This document shows positions 34,750 to 58,341 of a DNA stretch of 64,000 nt, in pieces. This DNA is from Halomonas sp. (GTDB taxonomy: Bacteria > Pseudomonadota > Gammaproteobacteria > Pseudomonadales > Halomonadaceae): the NCBI RefSeq assembly GCF_007692655.1, contig NZ_REBQ01000137.1, positions 1 to 64,000 of the forward strand. Reading direction: 5' to 3'. Made by a program: the position numbers and the translations under genes. How positions within the stretch are numbered: the first letter of the stretch is position 1; each line of letters opens with the position of its first letter. Below the pieces are notes generated by a model. It was not told where the DNA came from. It saw only the letters and a list, made by a program, of their open reading frames with translations, and ran no database searches.

Positions 34750-34756
34750 TGCCTGC

Positions 34757-36654: not shown

Positions 36655-36675
36655 AAGAAGTCACCGTGCCAAAGC

Positions 36676-36698
36676 GGCCTCCGGCACTACCGGAGGCC
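36676..36698 (-). terminator. Hairpin between dctP and dctQ
   Basis: GGCCTCCGG (36676-36684) and CCGGAGGCC (36690-36698) form a perfect 9-base stem with a 5-base loop in the short gap between binding-protein and small-permease genes. No U-tract follows. It is probably a partial terminator or mRNA stabiliser that raises binding protein over permease. Confidence 0.6.
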
Positions 36699-36715
36699 TA
36701 AGGTGTGAGAAGCGT

Positions 36716-37714: not shown

Positions 37715-37767
37715 AGTAAAGCCCTCTTTATATTGTTGTGAGGGTGGATAGTTGAGCGACTTACCCT

Positions 37768-37809
37768 TCGAGGGTTTCGCCCAGGCAGTTACCTGCCGCG
37801 AACGGCAGG
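37768..37809 (-). other. Two hairpins between denD and dctP, one with a UUCG loop
   Basis: In transcript sense (reverse strand) CCTGCCG, TTCG, CGGCAGG forms a 7-base stem closed by a UUCG tetraloop (37809-37792), just after the denD stop. A smaller ACCCT/AGGGT hairpin follows near 37780-37768. UUCG hairpins are very stable and often protect 3' ends of upstream mRNA or pause polymerase. Confidence 0.55.
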
Positions 37810-37818
37810 CCGGGGAAC

Positions 37819-38781
37819 TCACTGTTGTTCAGTAACGAAGGCATCAATAATCTGCTTAAAGCTGTCATCGCCCACAAACCCCAGTTGCTTGGCTTTTGCG
37901 GTTTCAAAGTGCGCGGGCCAGCCAGCCACAATGGCTTCGATGCGCGCATCGGGCTCATGGCGAACCAATGACAGCGCCTTCTCGCCTGCCGTTTCACGCA
38001 GCGCCTCAAGCATTTCAGCCACCGTGACGGTAATACCTGGCAGCATAAAAGCTCTAAACGGCGCTAACGATTTGCTCGGCACCTCGGCGCCGTGAATCAG
38101 CGCCTCTACCACTTTGCCCGGCGACATCACAAACATCGGCAGCTCGACAGGCACCGGGCAAATGGCCTCTTCACCGTTTAAGGGTTCACGCAGGATACTA
38201 GAGGCAAAGCTGGAGGCGGCGGCGTTGGGCCGCCCAGGGCGAATCACTATCGTTGGCAGGCGCAGTACCAGGCCATCGATAATCCCGCGTCGGCTGTAAT
38301 CATTGATTAACAGCTCACACATGGCTTTTTGAGCGCCATAGGAGTTTTGTGGATTCAGGGCCGTCATATCATCCAGCACCGCTGGCAGCGCTCCACCATA
38401 GGCGGCAACCGAGCTGGCCATAATCAAACGTGTTTGCGTTAACTCCTTCGCTCGGCAGCCTTCCAGCAGCGCCCGAGTGGCATCGAAATTAACCCGCATG
38501 CCAAGCTCCAAGTCGGCTTCTGCTGCTGAACTCACCACCGCTGCCAGGTGATAAATAACATCAGGACGTTGATCAAGCACGCTATCCAGCGCGCCTGGCG
38601 CGGTAATATCCAGGGCCAGCGATGACACAGAGAGGCTTCCCGACTCAGGTAACGGCGCCTCTACCTGATCAAGCAGCGTTAGCCGTGTAATCGGCTGCTG
38701 GCGAAGCTCGCCATGTGCGAGCAACTGTTGGACTAGCCGCTGACCGAGAAATCCAGCTGCACCGGTAATCGCTATATGCAT
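37819..38781 (-). CDS. denD: D-erythronate dehydrogenase
   Basis: 320 residues from the ATG at 38781 (TGGAG upstream; a TTG four codons earlier is possible). It is an extended SDR with the NAD motif TGAAGFLGQRLVQQLL, SSVAAYGG and the catalytic YGAQK (about 150). Its place among otnI, otnC, otnK and ltnD matches the described D-erythronate route, where DenD oxidises D-erythronate to 3-oxo-tetronate. Confidence 0.88.
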   Translation of the reverse strand: MHIAITGAAGFLGQRLVQQLLAHGELRQQPITRLTLLDQVEAPLPESGSLSVSSLALDITAPGALDSVLDQRPDVIYHLAAVVSSAAEADLELGMRVNFDATRALLEGCRAKELTQTRLIMASSVAAYGGALPAVLDDMTALNPQNSYGAQKAMCELLINDYSRRGIIDGLVLRLPTIVIRPGRPNAAASSFASSILREPLNGEEAICPVPVELPMFVMSPGKVVEALIHGAEVPSKSLAPFRAFMLPGITVTVAEMLEALRETAGEKALSLVRHEPDARIEAIVAGWPAHFETAKAKQLGFVGDDSFKQIIDAFVTEQQ

Positions 38782-38827
38782 CTTTTGCTCCAATGACGTG
38801 TTGTTATTGTTGATTTCTTGAGGCCAA

Positions 38828-39625
38828 TCAGTAGGGAGCTAGCCCCCAGGTTGCGCCCCAGCCCAAGCCTGCGCGCGTTTCAGCCCTGGGCCGATACTCA
38901 CAGCCAACCCAGCCGCGATAGCCCAATGCGCTTAGCCGTTCAAAAATAGCGGGGTAATGCACTTCACCTACATTGGGCTCGTGACGCTCGGGCACGCCCG
39001 CCACTTGAATATGGCCAATGGCGCTAAACTGGCGCTCAAGATGACGAATTAAGTCTCCGTCCATAATTTGGCAGTGGTAGAGATCAAACTGTAGTTTTAG
39101 GTTTTCGGCCCCTACCTCTTCAATAACCGCCATGGCTTGCGCTTGGCGCGAAAGGAAAAAGCCGGGCATATCGCGGGTATTAATTGGTTCGATCAATATG
39201 TCGCGGCCAGCCTTTGCCGCCTCCCCCGTTGCAAAGCGCAGGTTGCGCACGTAAGTCGCATGGTGGTCGGCCTGGGTGGCATCATCGGCGCCCTCGGGTA
39301 GCAACCCTGCCATGGCATGCACTTGGGGGCAGTTGAGGATCTCGGCATAGCGCAGCGCCTCAATGACCGAGTCACGAAACTCTCCCTCGCGGCCCGGCAG
39401 ACTAGCCAAGCCGCGCTCACCGGCGTCCCAATCCCCTGGCGGCAGATTAAACAGCACCTGCTCCAACTGCGCCTCTTGCAAGGCATGCTGTATATCTTCA
39501 GCGTCAAACGCATAGGGGAACAGATACTCCACGCCTTTAAACCCCGCCTCTGCAGCGGCGGCAAAGCGGTCGATAAAAGCGTGTTCGTTAAACAGCATGC
39601 TGAGGTTGGCGGCTAATCGAATCAT
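38828..39625 (-). CDS. otnI: 2-oxo-tetronate isomerase
   Basis: 265 residues of a TIM barrel in the hydroxypyruvate-isomerase-like group. It opens with [36 protein letters not shown] and has the metal-binding set in [15 protein letters not shown] (about 148), [14 protein letters not shown] (about 180) and VGCEYRP near the end. OtnI converts 2-oxo-tetronate, made by LtnD, to 3-oxo-tetronate. It lies 27 bases after otnC in the operon. Confidence 0.9.
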
Positions 39626-39652
39626 GGGGTGCTCTTGTCGTTAAATACGTCG

Positions 39653-40312
39653 TTAATCCCGTGGAAAGCGCGCTTCAAGCTCAGCGACTTGCTCTGGCGT
39701 CAATCCTCGTGGGTTCTCGCCCCGTAACAGCAGATAGAGCTTGGCGGTCTCTTCCAGCTCTTCAGTGGCGTAGACCGCAGCTTCCAAGTTTTTCCCCGCC
39801 ACCACCGGGCCGTGGTTGGCCAGCAGTACCGCGCTGTGTTTACCCGCTAAGCCCCGCACCGCATCGCCCAGTTTTGGGTCGCCGGGGATGTGGTAGGGAA
39901 TCAGCGGTAGCTTGCCCACCCGCATGACGTAGTAGGCGGTTAGCGGCGGAATGCAGTCGCAGGGATCGACGCCCGGCAAACACGACACCGCCACCGAATG
40001 GGTAGAGTGCAGATGCACAATAGCGCCGGACTGCGGGCGCTCCTCATACATTGCCATATGCAGGAACTGCTCTTTGGTGGGCGCATCGCCGCTGAGCAGT
40101 TGGCCGTGTTGGTCCAGATGCGAGATCCGCGCCGGGTCTAGCCGCCCCAGGCAGGCGTTGGTCGGGGTCATCAGCCAGCCGCCATCTTCAAGGCGCACGC
40201 TGATATTGCCGCTGGAGCCCATAGTGAGGCCGCGATCAAACAGCGATTTCCCCAGGGTGCTGATCTGCTCCCGCAGGCTGTTCTGGTGATGACGATGCAA
40301 GTGGATACTCAT
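39653..40312 (-). CDS. otnC: 3-oxo-tetronate 4-phosphate decarboxylase
   Basis: 219 residues of the class II aldolase/AraD family. GSSGNISVRLEDG is near residue 33, and the metal histidines are in VHLHSTHSVAVS (about 100) and LLANHGPVVAG (about 160). OtnC decarboxylates 3-oxo-tetronate 4-phosphate to dihydroxyacetone phosphate, the end of the pathway. Its start overlaps the otnK stop by four bases. Confidence 0.92.
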   Translation of the reverse strand: MSIHLHRHHQNSLREQISTLGKSLFDRGLTMGSSGNISVRLEDGGWLMTPTNACLGRLDPARISHLDQHGQLLSGDAPTKEQFLHMAMYEERPQSGAIVHLHSTHSVAVSCLPGVDPCDCIPPLTAYYVMRVGKLPLIPYHIPGDPKLGDAVRGLAGKHSAVLLANHGPVVAGKNLEAAVYATEELEETAKLYLLLRGENPRGLTPEQVAELEARFPRD

Positions 40313-41607
40313 ACCAGCACCTCAAAGGCTCGGGTAAAGAAGTCCACCCCTCCGAAGTTGCCGGACTTCAGCGCCAGCGACAGCGGCGCCTCGTGGCCTG
40401 GCAGCTGGGCCTGGGTCCAGGGCACACCGGGATCGATCTGCTCACCAATGCGCAAGGACGTAATGCCTAGTGACGAGACTACCGCGCCAGAGGTCTCGCC
40501 CCCGGCAACCAGCAAACGGCCCACGCCTTCATTGACCAGCGTGACGGCCAACTGGCTCAGCGCTTTTTCCACCAGCGCGCCTGCCCGCGCAACGCCTAGC
40601 GCTTGTTGGGCGGCATTGACCTTCTCCGGATCCGCAGAAGCGTAAATCAATACCGGGGTATTGCTGGATAGGCGCTTCTGAGCGAAAGCCAGGGCCTGTT
40701 GTTGCTGTTGTTCACTCTCTGCCAACGCCAAGGGATCGAGGGCAAAGCCGCCGTCAGGGTGCTTGGCCAGAAAATCCGCCACCTGGCCCAGTGTTGCCCG
40801 GGAGCAGCTGCCGGAGAGCACCAGCGCACTGCCTGAGGGTGGGGATAAACGTCCCGGCTCTGAAATCGTGTCTAACCAGCCTTGAGCACGGTACTGGGCG
40901 GGCAGTGCCTGGCCTAAACCGGAACCTCCAGTGACCAGGGGCATCAACACCGTCGCTTCAGCCAATACGTCCAAATCCTGCTCATCCAGGGAGTCACAAA
41001 TCACATGGCGAACACCCTGCTCTCCCAGCGCTGATAAATGAGCGCGGGTTGCATCACCCCCTTGGATTAGCACAGCGCGATTGGCCAGACCCACCGGGTG
41101 CGGCGTTTGGCGGGAGAGCACCCGCACCAGGTCGGCATCGGTCATCGGCGTCAACGGGTGATGCTGCATACCGCTATCGTTTAGTAAGCGATCACCGACA
41201 AACAGATGGCCCTGGTAGACCGTGCGGCCATTAATGGGAAAGGCGGGCACCATCACGGTTTGGCTATCCCCAAGGGCTTCGAGAAGCGCATCCGCCACCG
41301 GGCCGATATTGCCTTCGTTGGTAGAGTCAAAGGTGGAGCAGTACTTAAAAAACAGCTGGCGGGCGCCCTGCTGGCGGAGCCAGCCCAGTGCCGCAAGGGA
41401 ATCCGCCACGGCCTCATCCACCGGGCTGGAGCGGGACTTTAACGCCACCACCACGGCATCAATATCCTGCAGATTGACCGCCTCCGACGGCACGCCGATG
41501 ACCTGCAGGCAGCGCATACCACCGCGCACCAGGTTATTGGCAAGGTCGGTAGCCCCGGTAAAGTCGTCGGCGATGGCCCCTAATACGATGCGCGTTTCAA
41601 TGCCCAT
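40309..41607 (-). CDS. otnK: 3-oxo-tetronate kinase
   Basis: 432 residues of the DUF1537 four-carbon acid sugar kinase family. The N-terminal substrate domain begins GAIADDFTGATDLANNLVRGGM, with DFTGA as the signature. The C-terminal nucleotide domain has LLVAGGETSGAVVSSLGI (about 375) and DPGVPW near the end. OtnK phosphorylates 3-oxo-tetronate at C4. GGGAGG lies 8 bases before the ATG, and ltnD ends two bases upstream. Confidence 0.93.
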   Translation of the reverse strand: MGIETRIVLGAIADDFTGATDLANNLVRGGMRCLQVIGVPSEAVNLQDIDAVVVALKSRSSPVDEAVADSLAALGWLRQQGARQLFFKYCSTFDSTNEGNIGPVADALLEALGDSQTVMVPAFPINGRTVYQGHLFVGDRLLNDSGMQHHPLTPMTDADLVRVLSRQTPHPVGLANRAVLIQGGDATRAHLSALGEQGVRHVICDSLDEQDLDVLAEATVLMPLVTGGSGLGQALPAQYRAQGWLDTISEPGRLSPPSGSALVLSGSCSRATLGQVADFLAKHPDGGFALDPLALAESEQQQQQALAFAQKRLSSNTPVLIYASADPEKVNAAQQALGVARAGALVEKALSQLAVTLVNEGVGRLLVAGGETSGAVVSSLGITSLRIGEQIDPGVPWTQAQLPGHEAPLSLALKSGNFGGVDFFTRAFEVLV

Positions 41608-41609
41608 TT

Positions 41610-42542
41610 TCAGCCTCCCTGGGCATCGTTAGCGGCTTCCGGCAAGGTAATGCCTGATAGCCGTTGATAGACTTTGATCACCGCCGAGTCATCTTCGCGG
41701 CCAAAACCGGCCCCACTTGCGGCGGTAAACTGCTGTAAAGCACTCGCCGCAACGGGGGTTGCCAGCGCCAGTTCGCGGCCGGTTTGATGGACGATATTGA
41801 GATCTTTAACAAAGATATCCACTGCAGAAAGCGGCGTGTAATCACCACTCAGAATATGCGGCACGCGGTTTTCGAACATCCAGGAGTTACCCGCCGAATG
41901 GGTAATCACCTCGTAAATCACCTCAGGGTCGAGCCCCATGCGAATGCCCAGCGCCATGGCTTCGGCGGCCGTGGCGATATGTACCCCTGCCAATAGCTGA
42001 TTGACCAGTTTCATGCTAGAGCCCACGCCGGGCGCATCACCGAGGCGATAAACTTTAGCCGCCATGGTATCCAGTACGGTCTGGGCGTAGCTAAATGCCT
42101 CAGGCGTGCCGGATGCCATCACCGAAAGCTCACCGCTTTTGGCCTTTGCAGCGCCACCGCTAATGGGTGCATCCAGCATCATCATGCCTGCTGTCGCCAG
42201 CCGCTCACCAAGCTGCTTGGCTTGGCTGGGTGCCACCGTCGCGCACTGCATGATCAGACTACCGGAGGCCAAGTGGCCCACCACGCCCTGCTTGCCAAAC
42301 AGCACTTGTTCAACCTGCTCACCGTTGACGACAACCACCAATACGATATGGCAGTGAGCGAGCTCTGCAGGCGTAGCAACGCTTCTCCCGCCTGCGCTAA
42401 CGAAGGCATCGCGAGCAGTTGCAGATATGTCACAGCCTGTCACGCTTAAGCCCTGCTGGAGTAGTGCAGTGGCGGTGCCCATCCCCATGGCCCCCAAACC
42501 AACGACGCCTACCTGAAGTGCTTGTTCGCTTCGTTTACTCAC
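41610..42542 (-). CDS. ltnD: L-threonate dehydrogenase
   Basis: 310 residues of the beta-hydroxyacid dehydrogenase family. It shows VGLGAMGMGTATALLQQGL, the substrate loop LDAPISGGAAKAKSGELSVM (about 120) and the catalytic lysine in GVGSSMKLVNQLLAGVH (about 175). The start is GTG at 42542, with GGGGTG upstream. LtnD oxidises L-threonate to 2-oxo-tetronate. It heads a ten-gene same-strand run, and a LacI-type operator precedes it. Confidence 0.92.
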   Translation of the reverse strand: MSKRSEQALQVGVVGLGAMGMGTATALLQQGLSVTGCDISATARDAFVSAGGRSVATPAELAHCHIVLVVVVNGEQVEQVLFGKQGVVGHLASGSLIMQCATVAPSQAKQLGERLATAGMMMLDAPISGGAAKAKSGELSVMASGTPEAFSYAQTVLDTMAAKVYRLGDAPGVGSSMKLVNQLLAGVHIATAAEAMALGIRMGLDPEVIYEVITHSAGNSWMFENRVPHILSGDYTPLSAVDIFVKDLNIVHQTGRELALATPVAASALQQFTAASGAGFGREDDSAVIKVYQRLSGITLPEAANDAQGG

Positions 42543-42610
42543 CTGCTAACACCCCGCTACTGTGCTGATTGTTGTTATCGTCTCGATGCTTTACCGCTAT
42601 TAACCAAGCA

Positions 42611-42642
42611 AATGGTAGCGCTGTCATGATAGCGCTACCATT
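42611..42642. promoter_or_regulatory. LacI-family operator between ltnD and its regulator
   Basis: AATGGTAGCGCT (42611-42622) and AGCGCTACCATT (42631-42642) are perfect 12-base arms around 8 bases. Each arm carries TGGTAGCGCT, a half-site layout common for LacI-family repressors with the CG centre. The position between the divergent genes suits control of both. Confidence 0.8.
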
Positions 42643-42697
42643 CCTTTTAGATTATTCTTTGCGAATCGACAAGTTGAACATCAGGGACGTGCGACCA

Positions 42698-43732
42698 ATG
42701 TCTAAAGACTTCCCCGCCGCCGTTAAACAGCGCCGAAGCTCCGACCAAGTCACGTTAAGCCAAGTCGCACAAGCGGCAGGGGTATCGCCCATCACGGCTT
42801 CACGGGCACTGAACCATCCCGACAAAGTCAGCGATAGCGCGCGGCGCAGCGTGTTGGAAGCTGTCGAGCGTTTAGGCTACGTACCCAACCTTGTGGCCGG
42901 TAGCCTCGCCTCTTCACGGTCGCGCTTAATTGCGGTCATTGTGCCTTCGCTTATCAATACGGTGTTTGTGGAAGTGATCAAAGGCCTTCAGGAAACCCTG
43001 GAAGCCGAGGGGTACCAGATACTGCTTGGCAATACCGACTACGACCTAGACCGCGAGTACCAACTGGTGCGCACTTTTTTGGGCTGGTCGTGTTCGGCAC
43101 TGATCACCGCTGGGTTACGCCACAACAAGGCATGCCATACGCTGCTGGCTAACTGGGACCATCCCATTATGGAGGTGATGGAGCTGGGCAAGGGAATGGA
43201 CTTGAATGTAGGTTTGGATCACGTTGCCGCCGGCCGCTGCATGGCGGGTCACCTGGTTGATAAAGGCTATCGCCATATTGTTTATGTGGGCGCGCGGCTT
43301 GCCCAGGATTACCGTGCAGGCATGCGCTATGAGGGACATAAAGCGGTGCTAAAGGCCAACGGGATCGAAGCCCCTTTAGTGGAGCTCACCACGCTGGGTA
43401 GCCTGCAAGCGGGGGCAGACAGCCTGGCCCAGGTATTGACGCAATACCCCCACACCCAGGCCATCCATTTTGCCAACGACGACCTGGCGGCAGGCGCCCT
43501 GTTAGCTGCCCAGCGTCAAGGCCTCAATGTGCCGGGCGATATCGCCATTGCAGGCTTTAATGGCCTGCCCCTTGGCCAGCATGTGACGCCCCGGCTCACC
43601 ACCATTCTCTCGCCAAGAGAGGAAATGGGCCGCTTAGCCGCGAAAGAACTTATCCGTCGGCTCGGCGGTAAAAACGTCTACCGCCGCCAGCACGATGTTG
43701 GGTTTACGCTCCAGACTGGCGGCAGTACATAA
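42698..43732 (+). CDS. LacI-family transcriptional regulator (GntR-like), tetronate operon
   Basis: 344 residues from the ATG at 42698 (AGGGA upstream); the longer frame from 42569 would run through the operator and is unlikely. The LacI DNA-binding domain is clear (VTLSQVAQAAGVSPITASRALNHPDKVS, with the hinge NLVAGSLASSRS). It is followed by a periplasmic-binding-like ligand domain. It resembles the gluconate repressor GntR group, consistent with a sugar-acid inducer. It is divergent from ltnD, with the palindromic operator between. Confidence 0.92.
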   Translation: MSKDFPAAVKQRRSSDQVTLSQVAQAAGVSPITASRALNHPDKVSDSARRSVLEAVERLGYVPNLVAGSLASSRSRLIAVIVPSLINTVFVEVIKGLQETLEAEGYQILLGNTDYDLDREYQLVRTFLGWSCSALITAGLRHNKACHTLLANWDHPIMEVMELGKGMDLNVGLDHVAAGRCMAGHLVDKGYRHIVYVGARLAQDYRAGMRYEGHKAVLKANGIEAPLVELTTLGSLQAGADSLAQVLTQYPHTQAIHFANDDLAAGALLAAQRQGLNVPGDIAIAGFNGLPLGQHVTPRLTTILSPREEMGRLAAKELIRRLGGKNVYRRQHDVGFTLQTGGST

Positions 43733-43743: not shown

Positions 43744-45144
43744 TCACACCATTGGCGGCTGACCAAGAATCTCTAAGCCTGTGCCCAGTTCGTTCTCAAT
43801 CGCCTGCCCAATCGCCAGCAACTTAGCGTCTTGCCATGGCCCAGCCATTATTTGCAGGCCTACGGGCATGTGAGCGGCATCTTTCCCCACCGGTAGCGTT
43901 AGCGCACATAGGCCAAGAAAGTTGGCGATCACCGTATTGCGCAAGGCGTGCATATTGGCTTTGGGGTAGGCGCCATCGGGCTGAAGACTTTCGATCGTGG
44001 GCGGGGTAATCGCCACCGTCGGGGTGAGCACTGCATCGACATCGGCCATACGCGCCACGGCCGATTGATAGAGCGACTCCAGCACCGTGCGACGACGCAC
44101 ATATTCCCAGGCGGGCATATCATCTGCCGCTGCAATACGGGCCGCCACGTTAGGGTCGAGAAATTCAACTATCTCGGGCAGTTCAGTCTTTAAAAACGCG
44201 GCCAGCTCTGCTGCCGCGACGCCACCCAGTTTAAATAACTCATAGGCTTCGTCGATTCCCGGTAGCTCCAACGTCACCACCCGTGCGCCGGCGGCTTCCA
44301 GCTGTTTGATAGCAGCGCGCACTGTTTCCGCGATGCCCGGACTGCAATCGTCCCAGAAAAACGTTTCCGGAACGCCAAAGGTCAGATCGGCAAGGGAGGG
44401 CGTCGCAGGGACTTGATCATCTTTACCGCTAAGCCCAGCGTCCAACGCATCAAACGCAAAGGCGATATCATCTACTCGCCGGGCTAGCAGCCCAGGGGTG
44501 TCCAAGGTAGTGGAGAGCGGTACGATCTGCCCAGTCGACCAGCGCCCGGCGGTGGTTTTTAACCCCGCCACCCCGGTCATTGACGCAGGAATGCGAACAG
44601 AGCCTGCCGTGTCGGTACCTAGCGCTAAGCTTGCAGTGCCGCCTATCAAAGAGACGCCTGCCCCTGAACTGGACCCCCCTGGCGTGCGATGCTGGCTTAT
44701 ATCCCAAGGGTTGCGCGGCGCTCCCCAGTGGGCATTCGTGCCCAACCCGCCAAAGGCAAATTCGACGGAGTGTGTTTTTCCCATCACCGAAGGCAACTGC
44801 TTCAACAGCGCACTTACCACCGGACCAGAGTGTTCCCATCGTTTGGGCAAACGCTGGGAGGAGCCCGCATAGGTGGGCAACCCGGTCACGGCGAAAATAT
44901 CTTTGATGGATACTGCCAACCCCATTAGCGCCCCTGCATCGCCGCCTTGGGCAAGCACGGCATCCGTGGCGTTTGCCATCGCCAGGGCCTGATCGCCATT
45001 CCAGGTGAGGTAGGCGTGATCGTGTTTACCACGCTGCTGGTAAGCGGCGATTGATGCCTCCGCAAGGGCGGTCGCAGTGAGCGTACCTGCACGCAGCTGT
45101 GCGCGCTGTTCCCGTAGGGGTAGAAAAATCGGTGAGTCCTGCAT
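43744..45144 (-). CDS. Amidase-signature-family amidase
   Basis: 466 residues. The Ser-cisSer-Lys triad is visible: Lys in MGLAVSIKDIF (about 78), the cis-Ser in TPGGSSSGAGVSL (about 153) and the nucleophile in LGTDTAGSVRIPAS (about 177). Such enzymes hydrolyse a wide range of amides to acid and ammonia. GGAGG lies before the ATG. It is the last gene of the asparaginase-TRAP operon, just after RidA. The preceding genes make an amide of an imported organic acid the likely substrate; GatA is excluded by context and length. Confidence 0.9.
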   Translation of the reverse strand: MQDSPIFLPLREQRAQLRAGTLTATALAEASIAAYQQRGKHDHAYLTWNGDQALAMANATDAVLAQGGDAGALMGLAVSIKDIFAVTGLPTYAGSSQRLPKRWEHSGPVVSALLKQLPSVMGKTHSVEFAFGGLGTNAHWGAPRNPWDISQHRTPGGSSSGAGVSLIGGTASLALGTDTAGSVRIPASMTGVAGLKTTAGRWSTGQIVPLSTTLDTPGLLARRVDDIAFAFDALDAGLSGKDDQVPATPSLADLTFGVPETFFWDDCSPGIAETVRAAIKQLEAAGARVVTLELPGIDEAYELFKLGGVAAAELAAFLKTELPEIVEFLDPNVAARIAAADDMPAWEYVRRRTVLESLYQSAVARMADVDAVLTPTVAITPPTIESLQPDGAYPKANMHALRNTVIANFLGLCALTLPVGKDAAHMPVGLQIMAGPWQDAKLLAIGQAIENELGTGLEILGQPPMV

Positions 45145-45168
45145 CGTTCACGTACCTCCGGCCAGTGC

Positions 45169-45636
45169 TTAGCGCACCTCAAAAATAGCTTCGACTTCAA
45201 CCGCAGCATTACCCGGCAGCGTCGCAACCCCAATAGCAGTTCTAGCGTGTCGCCCTGCTTCGCCAAACAGCGCAACAAATAGCTCTGAGGCACCGTTAAT
45301 CACTAACGGTACGTCATGAAACCCCGGCGCTACATTGACAAAGCCGTTCATGCGCACGCAGCGCACAACTCGGGATAAGTCACCATCGACGGCATCACTG
45401 AGTGATGCCAAGAGGTTCAAGGCACATGCCTGGGCAGCCAATTTGCCGGTTTCAAGGTCAAATTCAGCACCCACCTTTCCAGCATAGAGAACCTCCCCTC
45501 CGCGCTCACAAATTTGCCCGGCTAAAAATAGCTGACTACCCAACTGAGACCAGGGCAGAAACATGCCGCGTGGTTTGGGAATAGCGGGCATTGTAAGGCC
45601 CTGCTCCCCTATGGCTTGTTCAATCGTTTTACTCAT
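45169..45636 (-). CDS. RidA-family (YjgF/UK114) deaminase
   Basis: 155 residues with the RidA fold. The substrate-binding arginine and following residues occur in GRHARTAIGVATLPGNAAVEVEAIFEV at the C-terminus. RidA proteins hydrolyse reactive enamine and imine intermediates to ketones plus ammonia. Its place between the TRAP genes and the amidase suggests that the pathway makes such an imine, for example by amino-acid deamination, but no PLP enzyme lies in the operon. Confidence 0.9.
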   Translation of the reverse strand: MSKTIEQAIGEQGLTMPAIPKPRGMFLPWSQLGSQLFLAGQICERGGEVLYAGKVGAEFDLETGKLAAQACALNLLASLSDAVDGDLSRVVRCVRMNGFVNVAPGFHDVPLVINGASELFVALFGEAGRHARTAIGVATLPGNAAVEVEAIFEVR

Positions 45637-45676
45637 CGTTCATTGTCCTTATTCATTCGTACATTTAAGCCACCGG

Positions 45677-46951
45677 TTAATAGATCAGCGAGGGCAGCCA
45701 GGTACTTAGCCAGGGAATATAGGTGATAACGATCAGTGCCAGCAGCATCAAACCAATCAGCGGCAAGCAGGCCTTAAACACCTCCTGCAGTGACATTTTG
45801 GATATCGCCATGGCGACAAACAGGTTCAGGCCGACGGGCGGTGTGATCATGCCCACCGAGAAGTTAATCAGTGTGATAACCCCGAAGTGAACCGGGTCGA
45901 CGCCTACTTGCGCGGCGATAGGCTGCAAGAGCGGCGAGAGCACGATAATCGCTGATGCACTATCCAGGAAAAAGCCGGCAACAATCATCACCACGTTAAA
46001 CAGCGCCATCACCTGGAAGGGATCATCTGTCCACGAAAGTACCTGCCCTGCCAGTTGACTAGGCGTACCGGTAATCGCGAGCAGCCACGAGAACGCCGAG
46101 GCGCCCGCAGTAATGAGCAGCAGGGTTGCAGAGATCAATCCTGAACTTCTTAACGTTCCAGCCAACTCTCTAAGATTGATGGTGCGATACACCACCATGC
46201 CGACAAATAAACCGTAAACGCAGGCCACCGCGGCTGATTCAGTCGGGGTAAATATCCCACTATAGATGCCACCCAACAGAATCACCGGCAGGCCAAGCCC
46301 CCAAGCGGCGGATTTAAAGGCCGCTAAAATTTCACGCAGCGTTGGGAATGGAGAGCGCTCGTAGCCCTTTATACTGCTGTAAATAATGCAGTAGGCAATC
46401 AGGATAGAGGCAATCACAATGGCCGGTAATAAGCCTGCAGCAAACAGACGGCCGACAGACGTTCCGGTGACGGAGCCGTAGATAATCAGCGCAATACTCG
46501 GTGGCACAATGGGCCCTAGCGTGCCTGCAGTGGCAATCAAACCAATGGCGAAGCGCTTATCGTAGCCAGCGGCTACCAGCGCTGGGAACATAATCGATCC
46601 AATCGCCACCACCGTGGCTGGGCTTGACCCAGAAATGGCACCAAAGAATAGGCATGAAAGTACAGTAGCCGCGGCTAAGCCGCCGGGCACCCACCCGACT
46701 AACGCTTTAGCGAGGTTGATCAACCGGTCCGAAAGGCCACCAATACGCATTAACTCCGCCGCCAGAATAAAAAACGGAATCGCCATCAGCGAGAAGTTAT
46801 TCATGCCGGTAAACATGCGCATTGGCACGATCACAGGATTGGTAGTGCCAAAAAACTCAATGGCGAGAAATACCGCCAACGCCAGTGAAGCAAAGATCGG
46901 TAGCCCGAGTAGCAGAACGGCAAAAAAGATAGGTAATAATGCAGTAATCAT
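45677..46951 (-). CDS. TRAP transporter large permease (DctM type), asparaginase operon
   Basis: 424 residues from the ATG at 46951 (GGAGAG upstream, overlapping the dctQ stop region). A longer frame to 46996 is out of step with DctM starts. Motifs are NFSLMAIPFFILAAELMRIGGLS, GSSPATVVAIGSIMFPALV and GMITPPVGLNLFVA. It is the transport subunit of a second TRAP system. The linked asparaginase and amidase suggest that the substrate is an amide-bearing organic acid. Confidence 0.92.
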   Translation of the reverse strand: MITALLPIFFAVLLLGLPIFASLALAVFLAIEFFGTTNPVIVPMRMFTGMNNFSLMAIPFFILAAELMRIGGLSDRLINLAKALVGWVPGGLAAATVLSCLFFGAISGSSPATVVAIGSIMFPALVAAGYDKRFAIGLIATAGTLGPIVPPSIALIIYGSVTGTSVGRLFAAGLLPAIVIASILIAYCIIYSSIKGYERSPFPTLREILAAFKSAAWGLGLPVILLGGIYSGIFTPTESAAVACVYGLFVGMVVYRTINLRELAGTLRSSGLISATLLLITAGASAFSWLLAITGTPSQLAGQVLSWTDDPFQVMALFNVVMIVAGFFLDSASAIIVLSPLLQPIAAQVGVDPVHFGVITLINFSVGMITPPVGLNLFVAMAISKMSLQEVFKACLPLIGLMLLALIVITYIPWLSTWLPSLIY

Positions 46952-46967
46952 GGTCGCTCTCCAGGGG

Positions 46968-47489
46968 TTAAACGAGCTTATCCGACTCAGCCACAAGCTC
47001 TTCGGAGAGGCTCACCGGAGGCTTCTTCCAGACTTCGTTGATCAGCCACAAATAGCGAAGGATCAACAGCACACCGGAAACCCCAATGGGTAGATAGAAC
47101 CACGCCATGGGCAGACGAAGCGCGGCGGTTAGCTGTCCTCGACCAAGCGTATTGAAATAGAGAACAAACCCGTAATAGGTCATAAAACCGGCAAACACGA
47201 TGCCAATAACGGCGGCAGTAATATGTAGCCAGCGGTTAATCGCCGGCGTGGCAATCGCGTTCAGTACATCCACCGAAATATGAGTGCCATGCCGTACCCC
47301 CATACTGGCCCCGATGAAGCTCATACAAATAATGGAATAGATAACGACTTCTTCAGCCCAAAACAGCGAACCGCTAAAGCCGTAGCGATAGACGACTTGG
47401 ATGGTAGTGAGGATGGTCGCAATCGACATGAAAACGACCATCGCCACGCTTTCCAAGCGATCAAGAAACTTATTGAGCGCTTCGAACAT
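46968..47489 (-). CDS. TRAP transporter small permease (DctQ type)
   Basis: 173 residues with four membrane helices and the DctQ pattern FWAEEVVIYSIICMSFIGASMGVRHGTHISVD. It pairs with the large permease encoded 17 bases downstream. Unlike the DctQ of the tetronate operon it has no repeat-built tail. Confidence 0.9.
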   Translation of the reverse strand: MFEALNKFLDRLESVAMVVFMSIATILTTIQVVYRYGFSGSLFWAEEVVIYSIICMSFIGASMGVRHGTHISVDVLNAIATPAINRWLHITAAVIGIVFAGFMTYYGFVLYFNTLGRGQLTAALRLPMAWFYLPIGVSGVLLILRYLWLINEVWKKPPVSLSEELVAESDKLV

Positions 47490-47547
47490 GAGATATCCAC
47501 ACCCTTAATGGGTCAGAAGAGAACGGCTTCGTTTAGGAAACCTAGGC

Positions 47548-48549
47548 TTAATACTCAATACCTACCGCGTCATAAACCTTATGCAGCAGTTCGGTGGTGA
47601 CAATGCTTTCGTACTCTTCATGCACCGGCATGCTGGCTTCAATAAAGGCTTCACGCTGCTCTGCGGATAGCTCGTTAATGGCAATTTCGCCGCTAATCGC
47701 TTCCATAATGGTCTCTTCATCCTGAAGCGTTAACTCGCGCGACGTGTCACGGCCATTATCGAAGGCTTCTAGCATGACCGCTTGCAGGTCTTCTGGCAGC
47801 GAATCCCAAGCATCCTGATTGATTACCGCCGCATAGGCGTGGTAAGCGTGATTGGTTAGGGAGAGATAATCCTGTACTTCATGAAAACGCATGGTGTAGA
47901 TGTTGGCGAGCGGGTTTTCCTGACCAGACACCACCCCCTGCTGAAGGCCGTTATACACCTCGGTAAACGCCATCGCGGTTGCATTGGCACCTAGGTTCTC
48001 GTAGGTGGAGATGATGATTGGCGCCTGCATGGTGCGCATGCGAATGCTATCCATATCCTCGGGTGTTTCAATCGGGCGATCATTGTTAGTAATATGCCGG
48101 AAACCCGCGCCCCAGAAGTTGACACCATACATATTGTGGCCGTCTAACGTATCGAGGATTTCGCGTCCCACCTCACCGTCTAGGGTTTCTACCATGGTGT
48201 CGTAATCGGCAATTAAGAAGGGTAAATCCAGAATCTGCATGCGTGGTTCGAAGTTGCCTAACGTCGCCGTTGGCGGAATGCCGATATCGACCAAGCCCAT
48301 CTGAATCTGCTCAATAATTTCAACATCGCCACCTACTTGAGCGGCTGGCAGTACGTTGATTTCTATGCGGCCGTCCGACTTCTCTTCCACTTCTTCTTTA
48401 AACCTCAGCGCCGCTTGTCCATTCGGGGTGTCCTCAATCAACACATGGGCAAAACTGAACGTATAGTCGGCTGCGTGAAGTTGAGCAGCACTAAAAGAGG
48501 CAACTGCGATAGCAGCAGAGAGAGTGGCTTTTGTCAGCGTTAGTTTCAT
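47548..48549 (-). CDS. TRAP transporter periplasmic binding protein (DctP)
   Basis: 333 residues. A signal peptide ends near AAQLHAADY (about residue 27). DctP motifs follow: FSFAHVLIEDTPNGQAALRFKEE, MYGVNFWGAGFRHITNNDRP (about 145) and GVVSGQENPLANIY (about 215). The conserved arginine (FRHI) should bind the substrate carboxylate. AGGA precedes the ATG. It is the second gene of the operon, 79 bases after asparaginase. Confidence 0.92.
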   Translation of the reverse strand: MKLTLTKATLSAAIAVASFSAAQLHAADYTFSFAHVLIEDTPNGQAALRFKEEVEEKSDGRIEINVLPAAQVGGDVEIIEQIQMGLVDIGIPPTATLGNFEPRMQILDLPFLIADYDTMVETLDGEVGREILDTLDGHNMYGVNFWGAGFRHITNNDRPIETPEDMDSIRMRTMQAPIIISTYENLGANATAMAFTEVYNGLQQGVVSGQENPLANIYTMRFHEVQDYLSLTNHAYHAYAAVINQDAWDSLPEDLQAVMLEAFDNGRDTSRELTLQDEETIMEAISGEIAINELSAEQREAFIEASMPVHEEYESIVTTELLHKVYDAVGIEY

Positions 48550-48628
48550 GTCCTACACCTTTATATAGTTATGATGAATTGCTTTTTTAGTTTCCTGGTA
48601 CCGCAGATGAGCAAGGTTGAGAGGCAGC

Positions 48629-49624
48629 TCACGCCATCAAGCGCTCCATCGCCTTACCCAGCGCTTCGCGCGGGGTACTACTCAGCAGTAAGGCAAGCGC
48701 AAGCCTCGCCTTACGTGCACTGATATCGTTAAGTGTTATCACCCCCGCAGAGGCTAAGTCTGCAAGGCTGCCGCTAAATTCATAGCTGCTGTTCACAGGC
48801 CCTTGGACGCAGCTACTAACGATCACCACGGGCACCCCTATGCCAACCAGCTCTCTTACTGTGGCCATCCAGCTAGGGGGCACATGGCCACGTCCCAAAC
48901 CGTCAATCACCAACGCCTTTGCCCCGCTTTCAATGCAGGCTTGCAATAATTTTGGCGAGGCATCCAAATAAGCTGGGAGTAGATCCACCCGTGGTAGTGG
49001 AGCCTCCCATCCGACGATTGGAGGGGCTATCTCTGTCGCAGCGTGATAAAGCTTTACCCGTTGCCCATCGATATATCCCAAGGGCCCCACCCCTGGTGCA
49101 TCGAAACCGTGCAGTTGAAAGCTGCTCACCTTGCGGGCATAGCGGGCTGATAATATTGATTCGTTAAACACCACCACACAGCCAAGCTGACTTAGTTGCG
49201 GACGTGTAGCGGCGACAATGGCATCGGAGATATTTTTAAACGCATCAGTACCCAGTTGGTGAGGTGCACGCTGGGAACCGGTAATGACGCACGGTTTGTT
49301 AGCCAGAAGCGTCAGTGACAAAAAATAGGCAGTCTCTTCTAAGGTGTCGGTGCCGTGGGTGATCACCAGTCCGTCGATATCCTCTCTCTTCATTGCTGCT
49401 TGCCCTTGATAGCAAAGCTGAGCGAGGTCGTTGAGGGTTACAGCGTTACTCGGTTTTTGCAGAATCGAGTGCACTTCTAACGTGACCTCAACACCTTGAG
49501 GCAGCGACACCTGATCAAGTAGCTGTTCACCGCTTAATGCTCCTGACTGGCTGCGCCCTGAATAGCTAGGCTTGCTGGCGATCGTGCCGCCTGTCGTCAA
49601 GACCATGATGTGCTTTTTGGTCAT
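48629..49624 (-). CDS. Asparaginase/glutaminase-family amidohydrolase
   Basis: 331 residues. The two threonine sites are in LTTGGTIASKPS (about residue 12) and VITHGTDTLEETAYF (about 88, with Thr and Asp of the catalytic triad). No signal peptide is present, so it is cytoplasmic. The family converts asparagine to aspartate and ammonia, and some members act on glutamine or other beta-amides. As first gene of an operon with a TRAP importer, RidA and an amidase, it probably serves a dedicated catabolic route rather than general asparagine metabolism. Confidence 0.9.
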   Translation of the reverse strand: MTKKHIMVLTTGGTIASKPSYSGRSQSGALSGEQLLDQVSLPQGVEVTLEVHSILQKPSNAVTLNDLAQLCYQGQAAMKREDIDGLVITHGTDTLEETAYFLSLTLLANKPCVITGSQRAPHQLGTDAFKNISDAIVAATRPQLSQLGCVVVFNESILSARYARKVSSFQLHGFDAPGVGPLGYIDGQRVKLYHAATEIAPPIVGWEAPLPRVDLLPAYLDASPKLLQACIESGAKALVIDGLGRGHVPPSWMATVRELVGIGVPVVIVSSCVQGPVNSSYEFSGSLADLASAGVITLNDISARKARLALALLLSSTPREALGKAMERLMA

Positions 49625-49662
49625 GCAGATTCCTGTGTTTTATGTCTAGCTAATACAAACAG

Positions 49663-49687
49663 CAGACATCAGATGTCTGATTTCAGA
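49663..49687. promoter_or_regulatory. Overlapping palindromes between asparaginase and the FadR-type regulator
   Basis: CAGACAT (49663-49669) and ATGTCTG (49673-49679) form a perfect 7+7 repeat. Overlapping it, TCTGA (49676-49680) and TCAGA (49683-49687) form a second. Their position suits an operator for the divergent GntR-type regulator. Confidence 0.6.
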
Positions 49688-49840
49688 CTAGACTGAACCG
49701 TGCGCTATTAGCAAGGCGGCATAACCAACGAAAATAGAATAATCATATTTATTATAAGTATATGCGGTCGAGTATCTTAAACCGCTAGGCTTATGACATT
49801 GCTAGAATGCACAAACACCGATAAGCAACGCGAGGCCCTC

Positions 49841-50602
49841 ATGAGTTTGAAACGCCAGCCCGAGACTTCCTCGACGAATACACTCTCTTTCGGAGATTCA
49901 ATGGAGCGCAGCTCAGTCGCGCTGCAACTGCTGGAGCGTATCAAAAGCGCCTTGATACGCGGCGACCTTAAGCCCGGCGATTACCTGCCATCAGAAACGG
50001 AATTGACCCACAGTCTTGGGATTGGCAAGTCGAGCGTGCGCGAAGCCATCAAAATGTTACAAGCGATTGGCATTGTGGAAGTCAAACGCGGGCAAGGCAC
50101 CATGATCCGCCGTGAACCCGGCACGCCGCTGGTGGACCCAATGGCGTTTGGAATGATCTTGGCGCGAGGTATGACACGGGACGTGTTGGAATTTCGTCTC
50201 ATGTTTGAACCTGCATATACCCTTCAAGCAATGAGCCGCGCGACAGCCGATGATCACCAGCGCATTCAGCAGAGTATTGATGCCATGGAAGAGGCGATCC
50301 GGGTAGGTGCACAAACTTCCCAGCACGACATCGCCTTTCATCGCGCCATTTTGCATAGCACGCACAACCCGATGACCATCCGCGTCGGTGAAACCTTACT
50401 GCAACTGATTGAAGCCGCGTTAGAAACTTCTATGCGCTCGCTACCGGAGACGGCCTTGAAGGATCATAAAGCTATCTATGCTGCCTTCGAAGCAGGCGAT
50501 ATAGCAGGTATCCATCAGGCCATCGCTGTTAGCAGCGAAAGCTGGGAAACAAACCTTACCTATGAAGATGACACTGGATTAAGCTCAGCACCACGCTTAT
50601 AA
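49841..50602 (+). CDS. FadR/GntR-family transcriptional regulator
   Basis: 253 residues from the ATG at 49841, chosen because GAGG lies 6 bases upstream; a start at 49793 would add 16 residues. The winged helix occupies about 25-90 (LKPGDYLPSETELTHSLGIGKSSVREAIKMLQAIGIVEVKRGQG). The FCD-type helical ligand domain follows, with FRLMFEP and the metal-binding histidines in HDIAFHRAILHSTHNP. It is divergent from the asparaginase operon and is its presumed regulator; the inducer is unknown. Confidence 0.9.
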   Translation: MSLKRQPETSSTNTLSFGDSMERSSVALQLLERIKSALIRGDLKPGDYLPSETELTHSLGIGKSSVREAIKMLQAIGIVEVKRGQGTMIRREPGTPLVDPMAFGMILARGMTRDVLEFRLMFEPAYTLQAMSRATADDHQRIQQSIDAMEEAIRVGAQTSQHDIAFHRAILHSTHNPMTIRVGETLLQLIEAALETSMRSLPETALKDHKAIYAAFEAGDIAGIHQAIAVSSESWETNLTYEDDTGLSSAPRL

Positions 50603-52130: not shown

Positions 52131-53426
52131 TCAGGGATTAAGCGCTATCTGTGTCAACGCAGCTACCGCGAGAGTGAGCGCTGCCTCATCAAAATCAAAG
52201 CAGGCGTGATGGTGACCCGCCGCAAGGTCAGCACCAAAAATCATATAGGTCGCCTGGCCACCGCGCTCCATCACCCTGGCCATTAACGAAGTGGCATCCT
52301 CAGAGCCCGCTGGCGTCACATCGTGCCTCACCAGGTGGGCGATTGCAGGGTGATCGGCAAGGCAAGCGGCCACTTTTTCTACCAAAGCCGGGCTGGCGGC
52401 GCAGGCGCTGGCAGCCCCCATGCGCTTGATCGAGACGCTTACGCCCTGCATGGCGGCAGCCCCTTTCAGCACCTCAAAAGCACGGCCTTCCATATAGTCG
52501 TTTATATCCGCCGTGGCGCCACGGGTCTCCAGCGTTAACAGCGCACTATCGGCAATGATATTGCGCCCACTCCCAGCATGCAGTTGACCAACGTTAATCC
52601 GCGCTGCGCCTTGGCTATGGGGGGCGATGGCGTGCAAACCAAGCGTCGCCTGGGCGGCCGCCAGCAAGGCATTGTGGCCGATCTCTGGCTGACCGCCGGC
52701 ATGGGCTGCCTTGCCTGAAAAATGGGCATCCAGTTTGGTGGTGGCAAGAAAGCCATCGGCAGCGCATACCACCTGGCCGCTGGGGTGTCCGAGGCCCAAG
52801 TGAGTGGCGATCAAGCTATCAACGTCATCCACCACACCCGCCTCCACCATCGATTGGGCGCCCCGCACGCCCTCTTCGGCGGGTTGGAAAATCAATTTTA
52901 TTTTGCCGCACAGCTGACTGGAAAACTGGCTTAACAGTTCGGCCAGCCCCAGCCCAATGGTGGCATGGCCATCATGACCGCAGGCGTGCATTGAGCCTTG
53001 GTTGAGCGAGTTAAAGCCCTCTTGGTAAGGACGGTGATCACCCTCGATGGACTCAACGATTGGCAGGGCATCAAGGTCGAAACGGAACGCCTGGGTTGGC
53101 CCAGGACGCTGGGTGTCCAATATGCCCACTACACCGGTAAAGCCGCCCTCCAAAGCAGGCAGCCAGCGCTCAATGGCTCCCTGAGTGCGTGCCTGCGCCA
53201 AGGCTGCGCTCAGCGTTTGTGGATCAGGCACCCCCATACGCGCGCGTTCACTCACCACTGCTTGCCCCAACTCAACGGCAAAACCCAGCTGGCTAAGCCG
53301 CTCCGCCACATGACTTGCGGTGCGAAACTCCATCCACCCCTGCTCGGGGTAGCGATGAAAGTCACGCCGTTGGGCAGAGAGGTGGGGGGCGATGGCGTTG
53401 GCGGCCTCAATGATATTCGCGTTCAT
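52131..53426 (-). CDS. abgA: M20-family amidohydrolase, p-aminobenzoyl-glutamate hydrolase subunit A-like
   Basis: 431 residues. The start (RRDFHRYPEQGWMEFRTASHVAERL), the zinc motif MHACGHDGHATIGLG (about 150), FQPAEEGVRGAQSMVEAG and PAGSEDATSLMARV near the end agree with E. coli AbgA along the whole length. AbgA works with AbgB to cleave p-aminobenzoyl-glutamate; AbgB and the AbgT transporter are absent here. GGAGG precedes the ATG. A GNAT gene lies 15 bases upstream in the same unit. Its substrate may be another N-acyl amino acid. Confidence 0.82.
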   Translation of the reverse strand: MNANIIEAANAIAPHLSAQRRDFHRYPEQGWMEFRTASHVAERLSQLGFAVELGQAVVSERARMGVPDPQTLSAALAQARTQGAIERWLPALEGGFTGVVGILDTQRPGPTQAFRFDLDALPIVESIEGDHRPYQEGFNSLNQGSMHACGHDGHATIGLGLAELLSQFSSQLCGKIKLIFQPAEEGVRGAQSMVEAGVVDDVDSLIATHLGLGHPSGQVVCAADGFLATTKLDAHFSGKAAHAGGQPEIGHNALLAAAQATLGLHAIAPHSQGAARINVGQLHAGSGRNIIADSALLTLETRGATADINDYMEGRAFEVLKGAAAMQGVSVSIKRMGAASACAASPALVEKVAACLADHPAIAHLVRHDVTPAGSEDATSLMARVMERGGQATYMIFGADLAAGHHHACFDFDEAALTLAVAALTQIALNP

Positions 53427-54604: not shown

Positions 54605-56080
54605 ATGCCAAGTTTCGATCCTGCCCAGGTTCTCCTCCCCTGTGCGCACTTTATCCAGGGCCAGCGCGTTATTGACCCGAGCGCGCTCAGCGTATCGCGC
54701 CCCTCCGATGGCGCCGTCTATGCCGAGCTGCCCATGGCCGATGCCAATCGCGTCGATGATGCGGTAACCAGTGCCCACCAGGCGTTTATGCGCGGCGACT
54801 GGTCACGCTGCGCGCCGCGGGAGCGGGCGCGGGTTATGCGCCGCTGGGCTGATCTAATTGAGGCCGATATTGATTATCTCGCCCCGCTGGAATCCCTCGG
54901 CTCCACCCGGCCGATTGATCAGACCCGGGCCTGGGATGTGCCCTATACCGCAGAGGGTATTCGCTTCTTTGCTGAATTCGCCGACAAACATGGCGGCGAA
55001 GTAGCGGCGACCGCCCACGACCACCTGGGCATGCAGATTGCCGAGCCGCTAGGCGTCGTTGGCGCGATAGCGCCCTGGAATTTCCCCCTCAGCATGACCT
55101 GCTGGAAAGTAGCTCCCGCCCTGGCAGCGGGCAACACGGTGGTGCTTAAACCCTCCGAGATGACCCCTTTCACCGCCGTGCGCTTGGCCGAGCTAGCCAT
55201 CGAGGCGGGCATGCCACCAGGGGTGTTCAACGTTATCCAGGGCAACGGGCCGTTGACTGGCGACGCGCTCTGCCGTCACCCCTATGTGGCCAAGGTAACC
55301 TTCACCGGCTCAACGGTGACCGGACGTACCATCATGGGCGCCTGTGCAGAGACCGGCCCCAAACCGGTGACCTTAGAGCTCGGTGGCAAAAGCCCCCAAC
55401 TGGTGTTTGCGGATATCCCGGATATTGATCGCACCGCTAAAACTCTCGCCGCCGCGATTACCGGCAACGCCGGGCAAGTATGCGTCGCCGGCTCGCGGCT
55501 ATTGATTCAACGCGAACTGCTTGAGCCCATGATTGAGCGGCTTAGCGAGCTTTTCAAAACCCTCGCCCCCGGCCCCACCTGGCAAACGGGCAGTTGGTTT
55601 TCGCCGATTATTTCCGCCACCCAGTTGACCCGTATTGAGTCCATTGTGACGCGCTCCCGCGAGGCGGGCGCCGAACTGCTGTGTGGTGGAGAGCGCTTTG
55701 AACGCCATGATGGCGGGCACTTTTACCAGCCCACCCTGCTGCATACAAACGACCGTCACAATCCCGCCGTGGAGGAGGAGATCTTTGGCCCCGTACTTAC
55801 CATTCAAACCTTCGAGAGTGAAGAGGAAGCATTAGCGCTGGCCGAGCACGATGTTTACGGCTTGGCTGCAGGCATTCATACCGCAGACCTGGGGCGCGCG
55901 CTACGCACGGTAAGGAAGCTCTCCGCGGGCACGGTATGGGTGAACCGTTACGGTCGAAGCAACGACTACATTCTTCCCACCGGCGGCTACAAACGCTCGG
56001 GGGTGGGCCGCGACCTAGGCCGTGCTGCCTTTGACGCCTGCCTGCAGCATAAAAGCGTGCTGATTGATCTCAATCAATGA
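54605..56080 (+). CDS. NAD(P)-dependent aldehyde dehydrogenase
   Basis: 491 residues with the full ALDH set: GAIAPWNFPLSMTCWKVAPALAAGN (about 158), FTGSTVTGRTI, LELGGKSPQLVF (about 258) and NAGQVCVAGSRLLI with the catalytic Cys (about 291). The sequence pattern resembles the gamma-aminobutyraldehyde/PuuC-like branch. GGACT lies before the ATG. It begins a same-strand series with two FAD amine-type oxidases and a HAD enzyme, so it probably oxidises the aldehyde they release. Confidence 0.9.
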   Translation: MPSFDPAQVLLPCAHFIQGQRVIDPSALSVSRPSDGAVYAELPMADANRVDDAVTSAHQAFMRGDWSRCAPRERARVMRRWADLIEADIDYLAPLESLGSTRPIDQTRAWDVPYTAEGIRFFAEFADKHGGEVAATAHDHLGMQIAEPLGVVGAIAPWNFPLSMTCWKVAPALAAGNTVVLKPSEMTPFTAVRLAELAIEAGMPPGVFNVIQGNGPLTGDALCRHPYVAKVTFTGSTVTGRTIMGACAETGPKPVTLELGGKSPQLVFADIPDIDRTAKTLAAAITGNAGQVCVAGSRLLIQRELLEPMIERLSELFKTLAPGPTWQTGSWFSPIISATQLTRIESIVTRSREAGAELLCGGERFERHDGGHFYQPTLLHTNDRHNPAVEEEIFGPVLTIQTFESEEEALALAEHDVYGLAAGIHTADLGRALRTVRKLSAGTVWVNRYGRSNDYILPTGGYKRSGVGRDLGRAAFDACLQHKSVLIDLNQ

Positions 56081-56132
56081 GTTACGCAGCGAATTGGCAG
56101 GTTATTTTATCTACTACATAGAGGTAGCAAAC

Positions 56133-57464: not shown

Positions 57465-57561
57465 GCGGCCTGCCGCATTGTGTGCTGCATCAGCCAAAAA
57501 AAAAGCGTGTTTGTGTTAGTCGGGCGCGCACTTTCAGCGTCTGGCGCCTGCTCAAGAGTGC

Positions 57562-57603
57562 TGTAATGAAATGAGTCGCTGCGCTAAAGACTCTCCCATT
57601 ACA
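57562..57603 (+). promoter_or_regulatory. Nested inverted repeat upstream of the HAD gene
   Basis: TGTAATG (57562-57568) pairs with CATTACA (57597-57603), and inside it GAGTC (57573-57577) pairs with GACTC (57589-57593). It lies in the 168-base gap before the HAD gene. It could be a regulatory leader hairpin or an operator. Confidence 0.45.
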
Positions 57604-57632
57604 CCAATCATGACAAATGAGGATCAAACACC

Positions 57633-58307: not shown

Positions 58308-58341
58308 GCCATCTGTTTCGTGAACCGTGCAGGAATCGCCC

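Follow-up and report, generated by a model that had tools for sequence, protein, structure and literature searches.

The DNA considered here is a stretch of 64,000 nucleotides from Halomonas sp. (contig NZ_REBQ01000137.1 of assembly GCF_007692655.1, positions 1 to 64,000), referred to below in its entirety as the window. Between positions 43,744 and 50,602 it carries six minus-strand genes, for an asparaginase, the three parts of a tripartite ATP-independent periplasmic (TRAP) importer, a Rid protein and an amidase-signature protein, back to back with a gene for a GntR regulator. This arrangement may constitute an operon for the import and stepwise nitrogen removal of a small asparagine-like acid, and its features are the following:

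48629..49624, minus strand: asparaginase of 331 amino acids (PF00710 and PF17763), the first gene of the operon
47548..48549, minus strand: DctP, the TRAP solute-binding protein (PF03480; TIGR00787 above its cut-off)
46968..47489, minus strand: DctQ, the small TRAP permease (PF04290)
45677..46951, minus strand: DctM, the large TRAP permease of 424 amino acids (PF06808; TIGR00786 above its cut-off)
45169..45636, minus strand: predicted Rid1-type imine/enamine deaminase (PF14588)
43744..45144, minus strand: amidase-signature protein (PF01425), the last gene of the operon
49793..50602, plus strand: divergent GntR/FCD regulator (PF00392 and PF07729)
49663..49679, no strand assigned: 17-bp palindrome CAGACATCAGATGTCTG, the likely operator for the regulator

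The six minus-strand open reading frames (ORFs) and the divergent regulator gene are all complete, as judged from ORF calls and Pfam matches, and in the order of transcription the six are separated by gaps of 79, 58, 16, 40 and 24 bp, computed from the ORF coordinates. They are presumably co-transcribed as one operon; scans of the locus for promoters and terminators returned sites no more numerous than in shuffled sequence. How well does the arrangement hold beyond this genome? When the Rid protein was searched for in 117 related genomes, counting hits of at least 78% identity, 16 copies (78-100% identity) came up in 15 genomes of the same genus, the window's own included, and the contexts of all 16 (the window and loci L039-L053) were inspected. 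The order gntR, then divergently asparaginase-dctP-dctQ-dctM-rid-amidase, recurs in 11 of the 16 (the window, L039-L045 and L047-L049) and, with frameshifts, in one more (L053); three copies (L050, L051 and L052) represent a variant operon with an extra gene, and one (L046) has kept only rid and a full-length amidase. The intact operon copies encode DctP proteins 79-96% and DctM proteins 88-98% identical to those of the window, and the regulator, 74-95% identical to the window's, is present and divergent in 15 of the 16. Three further genomes hold remnants with internal deletions, two of which (L035 and L036) retain a full-length amidase where the TRAP and asparaginase genes are gone, the third (L038) being of the variant type with a broken amidase. 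The operon is thus patchy in its distribution and is sometimes lost. On the evidence of ORFs, Pfam matches and these 11 full arrangements, the six-gene operon with its divergent regulator, proposed in an earlier note on this DNA, is real, and the gene set is conserved in other genomes, both as this synteny within the genus and as related sets in Gemmobacter fulvus and in a metagenome-assembled genome (MAG) of Lautropia.

The importer is complete, as the earlier note had it, all three TRAP components being recognised by their families (PF03480, PF04290 and PF06808). The host genome (G000, genus Vreelandella/Halomonas, 4.05 Mb, 90.6% complete) contains 34 DctM-family matches, of which the operon's DctM scores highest, so that a TRAP system alone is not remarkable. 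A structure model of DctP, intended for reading the ligand, was dropped (mean pLDDT, the predicted local distance difference test, 57.8), and structural comparison only agrees with the TRAP fold. The regulator carries an FCD domain beside its GntR domain, which makes its earlier description as ‘FadR-type’ right in the broad sense. Thirty-eight bp upstream of the asparaginase start lies the palindrome CAGACATCAGATGTCTG, perfect around one base, which in a comparison that included an alignment of 14 intergenic regions was found exactly in 13 of 16 other loci (L039-L053 and L181) and was missing in L046, L050 and L051. The host genome has no second exact match to it and one with two mismatches, and chance would give 0.14 matches per window when up to three mismatches are allowed. 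The palindrome probably binds the divergent GntR protein.

The amidase-signature protein (PF01425, 268.3 bits against a threshold of 27) possesses K81, S158 and S182, which are invariant across six aligned sequences and which we take to be the Lys-cisSer-Ser triad of the family. Its relatives in PLSDB (E <= 1e-80) lie on six plasmids, from Halomonas, Gemmobacter, two Comamonas, Burkholderia and Achromobacter, and the one on pCNB of Comamonas testosteroni CNB-1, 51% identical to the operon amidase over 456 residues, sits inside a 2-aminophenol cluster. In a tree of 22 sequences, the operon proteins, the Gemmobacter protein and those of pCNB/Achromobacter form one clade (local support 1.00); the nearest sequence outside it is 37% identical, and nine paralogues from the host's own genome are 24-32% identical. 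The pCNB protein (WP_008328889) is probably CnbZ, which deaminates 2-aminomuconate and 2-amino-5-chloromuconate; secondary literature searches gave no confirmation. By kinship, then, the operon amidase is a candidate enamine deaminase or N-acyl-enamine hydrolase, and the amide-cleaving activity with which the earlier note credited it is not established. It is conceivable that the Rid protein and the amidase both act on an enamine or imine, so the earlier argument that two amide-cleaving enzymes imply a substrate with two amide groups does not follow. Like the operon, the pCNB cluster holds an amidase-signature protein and a Rid protein together; in the part of pCNB inspected, neither an asparaginase nor a TRAP gene is listed. 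Clusters for 2-aminophenol include cnb on pCNB and amn of B. xenovorans LB400 (PMC3790839), and the enzyme classically known as 2-aminomuconate deaminase belongs to the Rid proteins too (PMC6742747). Could 2-aminomuconate itself be the intermediate in Halomonas? This was rejected, albeit weakly: a search of the host genome (~91% complete), made without a positive control, gave no match to the 2-aminophenol dioxygenase CnbCb, and the only DmpH match there is 30% identical and lies in a cluster that by eye resembles one for hydroxyphenylpropionate.

The Rid protein matches PF14588 with 81.3 bits (threshold 35), its best solved matches being 3d01 and then PA0814 (9bk9), and the equivalent of RidA Arg105, aligned with the arginine of PA0814, lies in HARTAIGVATLP. 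By sequence it is a Rid1-type protein that has kept the catalytic arginine, and it does not belong to the RidA subfamily; of the earlier designation as a ‘RidA’ imine deaminase, the Rid family stands and the subfamily does not, PA0814 being the nearest characterised relative. We know of no pathway assigned to PA0814 or to ACIAD3089. Imine deaminase activity was measured for both, with none significant on iminoarginine (PMC5619798), and Rid activity has been tied to the Arg105 equivalent (PMC4433059). The operon protein has PF14588 and the catalytic arginine in common with both enzymes, and differs from them in that its gene sits between a TRAP gene and an amidase gene. Rid homologues as such are widespread (161 of 398 genomes of the phylum at E <= 1e-20), and a homology scan of 10 such contexts with the operon gene set revealed no TRAP gene and no asparaginase.

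Is the linkage to the importer then simply a matter of descent within the genus? Two cases of recombined linkage suggest otherwise. On plasmid p1 of the alphaproteobacterium Gemmobacter fulvus, amidase-dctP-dctQ-dctM stands back to back with a RidA gene (amidase 54%, DctP 56%, or 54-57% across the comparisons with Gemmobacter, DctM 70% and Rid 44% identical to the window's proteins), and no asparaginase homologue was found in the 31 kb examined. In the MAG of Lautropia, which belongs to the Burkholderiales, dctP (60%), dctQ (41%), dctM (71%) and the asparaginase gene (47%) are followed by tartrate dehydrogenase (534.6 bits for TIGR02089, whose cut-off is 470.4), and a gene of the ureidoglycolate-lyase family is divergent beside this operon. 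These pairings mean that the TRAP linkage is not merely inheritance within the genus and, since the two halves of the operon occur apart, each beside a homologous importer and each in a remote lineage, they are stronger evidence than within-genus synteny. Genome searches in which at most 4-8 candidates were scored per genome, so that misses are possible, matched the DctP ortholog in the host's own genome and in G005, both among 369 genomes of the class (E <= 1e-90) and among 398 of the phylum (E <= 1e-80), and in none of 248 genomes of family f260 (E <= 1e-105); the amidase search of the 398 phylum genomes gave the same two matches. A contig search with the asparaginase found DctP/DctM homologues in four of 80 loci among the matches listed (L100, L101, L103 and L169). 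L103 pairs a related TRAP system with the asparaginase and has no rid or amidase within ~9 kb, the TRAP genes of L169 are ~7 kb from the asparaginase, and L104 and L105 have the asparaginase without TRAP genes, tartrate dehydrogenase being the next gene in L105. In L101 (6119-10738, an Oceanisphaera MAG), a different TRAP system adjoins an asparaginase of 50% identity and a gene that resembles a regulator.

The variant operon of L050-L052 encodes asparaginases 54-57%, DctP proteins 80-87%, Rid proteins 78-87% and amidases 75-78% identical to those of the window. Its extra gene, placed between dctM and rid in these three and in the decayed L038, specifies an M20 enzyme; with 363 bits, the L051 copy passes the cut-off of TIGR01879, the hydantoinase/carbamoylase family, which is 204. 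A second amidase-signature gene is present in L050 and L051, the contig of L052 ending where these two carry it, and L050 has a gene of the FmdA family as well. With the importer kept and the hydrolases varying, related substrates that contain one more cleavable bond are suggested. The host's own genome encodes a 55% homologue of the variant's second amidase elsewhere (G000:C10:21068-22159, L199), with ABC transporter genes adjacent by eye.

The asparaginase (ASPARAGINASE) exceeds the gathering scores of PF00710 (180.4 bits versus 22.5) and PF17763 (88.5 versus 34.6) and has retained its catalytic residues. T14, T92-D93, K165, S59 and E282 are invariant across eight aligned operon copies; T14, T92-D93 and K165 are the presumed catalytic positions, and Ser59 corresponds to Ser58 in a gap-free reading by eye. 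The best solved relatives, matched over residues 2-317 with 265-274 bits, are the 7c8q/8h4d group, which we take to be the Bacillus licheniformis-type L-asparaginase; these nearest relatives by sequence share the catalytic residues, and the residue after the conserved Ser is Asn in the Halomonas operon enzyme but Met in chain 7c91. One further asparaginase match, a distant one, occurs in the host genome. The protein falls under the NCBIfam cut-offs for both type I and type II (170.4 bits versus 314.3 for the latter), and with the catalytic Thr at residue 14 there is no room for a signal peptide. A type II, periplasmic enzyme is thus contradicted by score and by the impossibility of an export signal, and because of the latter the cytoplasmic location assumed in the earlier note is a reasonable prediction.

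This bears directly on prior work. Sharafi et al. 2017 (PMC5843318) described a Halomonas asparaginase gene, which they assigned to ‘type II’, with DctPQM on its flank and a divergent GntR gene; they took the enzyme to act at the cell surface, and proposed C4-dicarboxylate/aspartate transport. Slow growth on 1 mM L-asparagine as carbon source, or on 0.1 mM with ammonium, was seen for the three of their five isolates that showed type II activity and not for the other two. The best sites of that study's two primers fall in the gntR and asparaginase genes at a spacing of 620-647 bp (~600 bp in the paper), with 3 and 4 mismatches in the window and 0-5 each in all but one (L046) of the 16 loci L039-L053 and L181; a scan allowing at most three mismatches misses one of these two sites in the window. 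By primer fit, their cluster is of the same locus type as the operon. The earlier note knew of no named pathway with this gene set, but the asparaginase-TRAP-GntR part has been in print since 2017; the available text of that paper mentions neither rid and amidase nor the variant operon nor any relative from other genera. Full-text searches of open-licence literature for the whole gene set returned nothing apart from one general review.

Several neighbouring genes deserve mention in their own right. Main-type copies and L046 have LtnD- and LacI-like genes downstream of the amidase, and in the window the region 32282-43732 appears by eye to be a catabolic cluster for four-carbon acid sugars, with OtnK/LtnD/OtnC/OtnI/DenD-like genes, a second TRAP system and a LacI regulator. 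An M20 amidohydrolase (52131-53426; TIGR01891, 326 bits) is located near the operon on the other side; it adjoins gntR in L043 and is nearby in L046. Farther on (54605-63339, by eye from the ORFs), genes for an aldehyde dehydrogenase, two FAD oxidoreductases, a HAD protein and a dipeptide-type ABC transporter stand in a row.

What, then, might the operon be for? We favour, with a probability of about 40%, a GntR-controlled operon for an asparagine-like amide or ureido acid. The TRAP system would import a small acid, an asparagine-like amide acid fitting best (asparagine or some modified version of it, such as an N-carbamoyl one), after which the cytoplasmic asparaginase would remove the side-chain amide. 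The Rid1 protein would then remove nitrogen from a 2-enamino/imino acid, and the amidase-signature protein would probably serve the same nitrogen removal, directly or by freeing the enamine from an N-acyl/N-carbamoyl group, to leave a keto or dicarboxylic acid plus ammonia; substrate, order of reactions and enamine role of the amidase are all what we infer here. A comparable system is the Rut pyrimidine pathway, in which the amidohydrolase RutB acts first and the Rid protein RutC then hydrolyses the enamine. What the two would share (compare PMC8113886) is an amidohydrolase whose enamine product is handed on to a Rid protein; the operon differs in having no RutA or RutB homologue among its six genes and an amidohydrolase of a different family. 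In support of this scheme stand the conserved synteny, the recombined linkage in Gemmobacter and Lautropia, the grouping of the amidase with a pCNB protein encoded among 2-aminophenol dioxygenase genes, the carbamoylase-family M20 enzyme of the variant, the growth on asparagine (PMC5843318) and the imine deaminase activity measured for the Rid1 relatives PA0814 and ACIAD3089 (PMC5619798).

A number of observations weigh against it. Pfam reveals no oxidase, pyridoxal phosphate enzyme or dehydratase in the operon that would form the imine. The nearest solved binding proteins are distant from DctP (best 213 bits; no more than 26% identity among the structural alignments listed for its poor model), and the titles of some name them as binders of dicarboxylates or sugar acids. 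The closest Rid protein outside the genus (64%, L090) is encoded among unrelated genes, as judged from neighbours with a family match, and that of Gemmobacter, at 44%, is no closer than several Rid proteins outside such operons (44-50%), so that Rid sequence alone is no marker of the pathway. The deaminase activity of CnbZ found no confirmation in the secondary literature searches, and the Achromobacter and Burkholderia plasmid copies lie in meta-cleavage clusters with no 2-aminophenol dioxygenase listed in the stretch shown. Finally, in PMC5843318 none of the isolates grew on 0.1 mM L-asparagine without ammonium, and isolate H2 grew although the locus PCR gave no product; the growth data are correlative.

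The main rival, which we regard as somewhat unlikely, is ordinary scavenging of L-asparagine and aspartate, with one or the other as cargo of the TRAP system, the asparaginase making aspartate and rid and amidase as accessories for imine damage control or side amides. The presumed contact residues of the asparagine alpha groups are kept, and L103 manages with TRAP and asparaginase genes alone over the distance given above. This explanation is near that of Sharafi et al. 2017, and the growth of three of five isolates on low L-asparagine, together with genes flanking DctPQM (PMC5843318), speaks for it. Its periplasmic type II picture, however, does not fit an enzyme that scores 170 bits against 314 and can have no signal peptide, the Gemmobacter importer travels with amidase and RidA in the absence of an asparaginase homologue from the 31 kb, and the variant's carbamoylase, plus the further amidase of L050/L051, would be needless for asparagine. 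Perhaps, these extra hydrolases point to the catabolism of an N-carbamoyl (ureido) acid, in which the carbamoylase or amidase would decarbamoylate, Rid would hydrolyse the enamine and the asparaginase would handle a carboxamide. The M20 gene of the three variants and of decayed L038, the FmdA formamidase family in L050 and the ureidoglycolate-lyase family gene in Lautropia agree with this, but the window-type operon has no carbamoylase, the Rut-like genes are missing from the six as noted, and M20 carbamoylases have a broad substrate range; we consider it improbable. Less likely still is the diamide or imide pathway of the earlier note, i.e. two true amide hydrolyses with an imine in between: the two amide-hydrolase folds, the intact amidase-signature triad and the second amidase-signature protein of L050 and L051 would suit it, but the amidase groups with the protein of the pCNB aminophenol cluster, probably an enamine deaminase. 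Some other function, or a recent assembly of genes without a single pathway, seems very improbable; the internal deletions and decayed copies (L035, L036, L038 and L046) and the patchy occurrence (Rid at 78% or more in 15 of 117 genomes) are set against six proteins and a palindrome that are highly conserved in 11 full copies, and against the related combinations in Gemmobacter and Lautropia.

Returning to the favoured scheme of import, deamidation and an enamine or imine step, it is tempting, though doubtful at present, to see in it an unreported pathway for a natural enamide or ureido acid, in which, after uptake by a dedicated TRAP importer and the asparaginase step, an amidase-signature enzyme works alongside a Rid1 protein, either being an enamine deaminase itself or supplying one. 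Since importer, enzymes and a likely operator are found in one locus, discovery of the substrate should be straightforward. The type II, cell-surface reading of the locus-linked Halomonas asparaginase is corrected. To our knowledge, the Rid1 subfamily has so far been described through in vitro activity and ridA complementation tests only; if the proposal is true, a Rid1 protein would acquire a physiological pathway, a natural setting would be given to the rare amidase-signature clade that also occurs on a plasmid for nitroaromatic degradation, and the pollutant-degrading pCNB protein (probably CnbZ) would have been recruited from such a natural enzyme.

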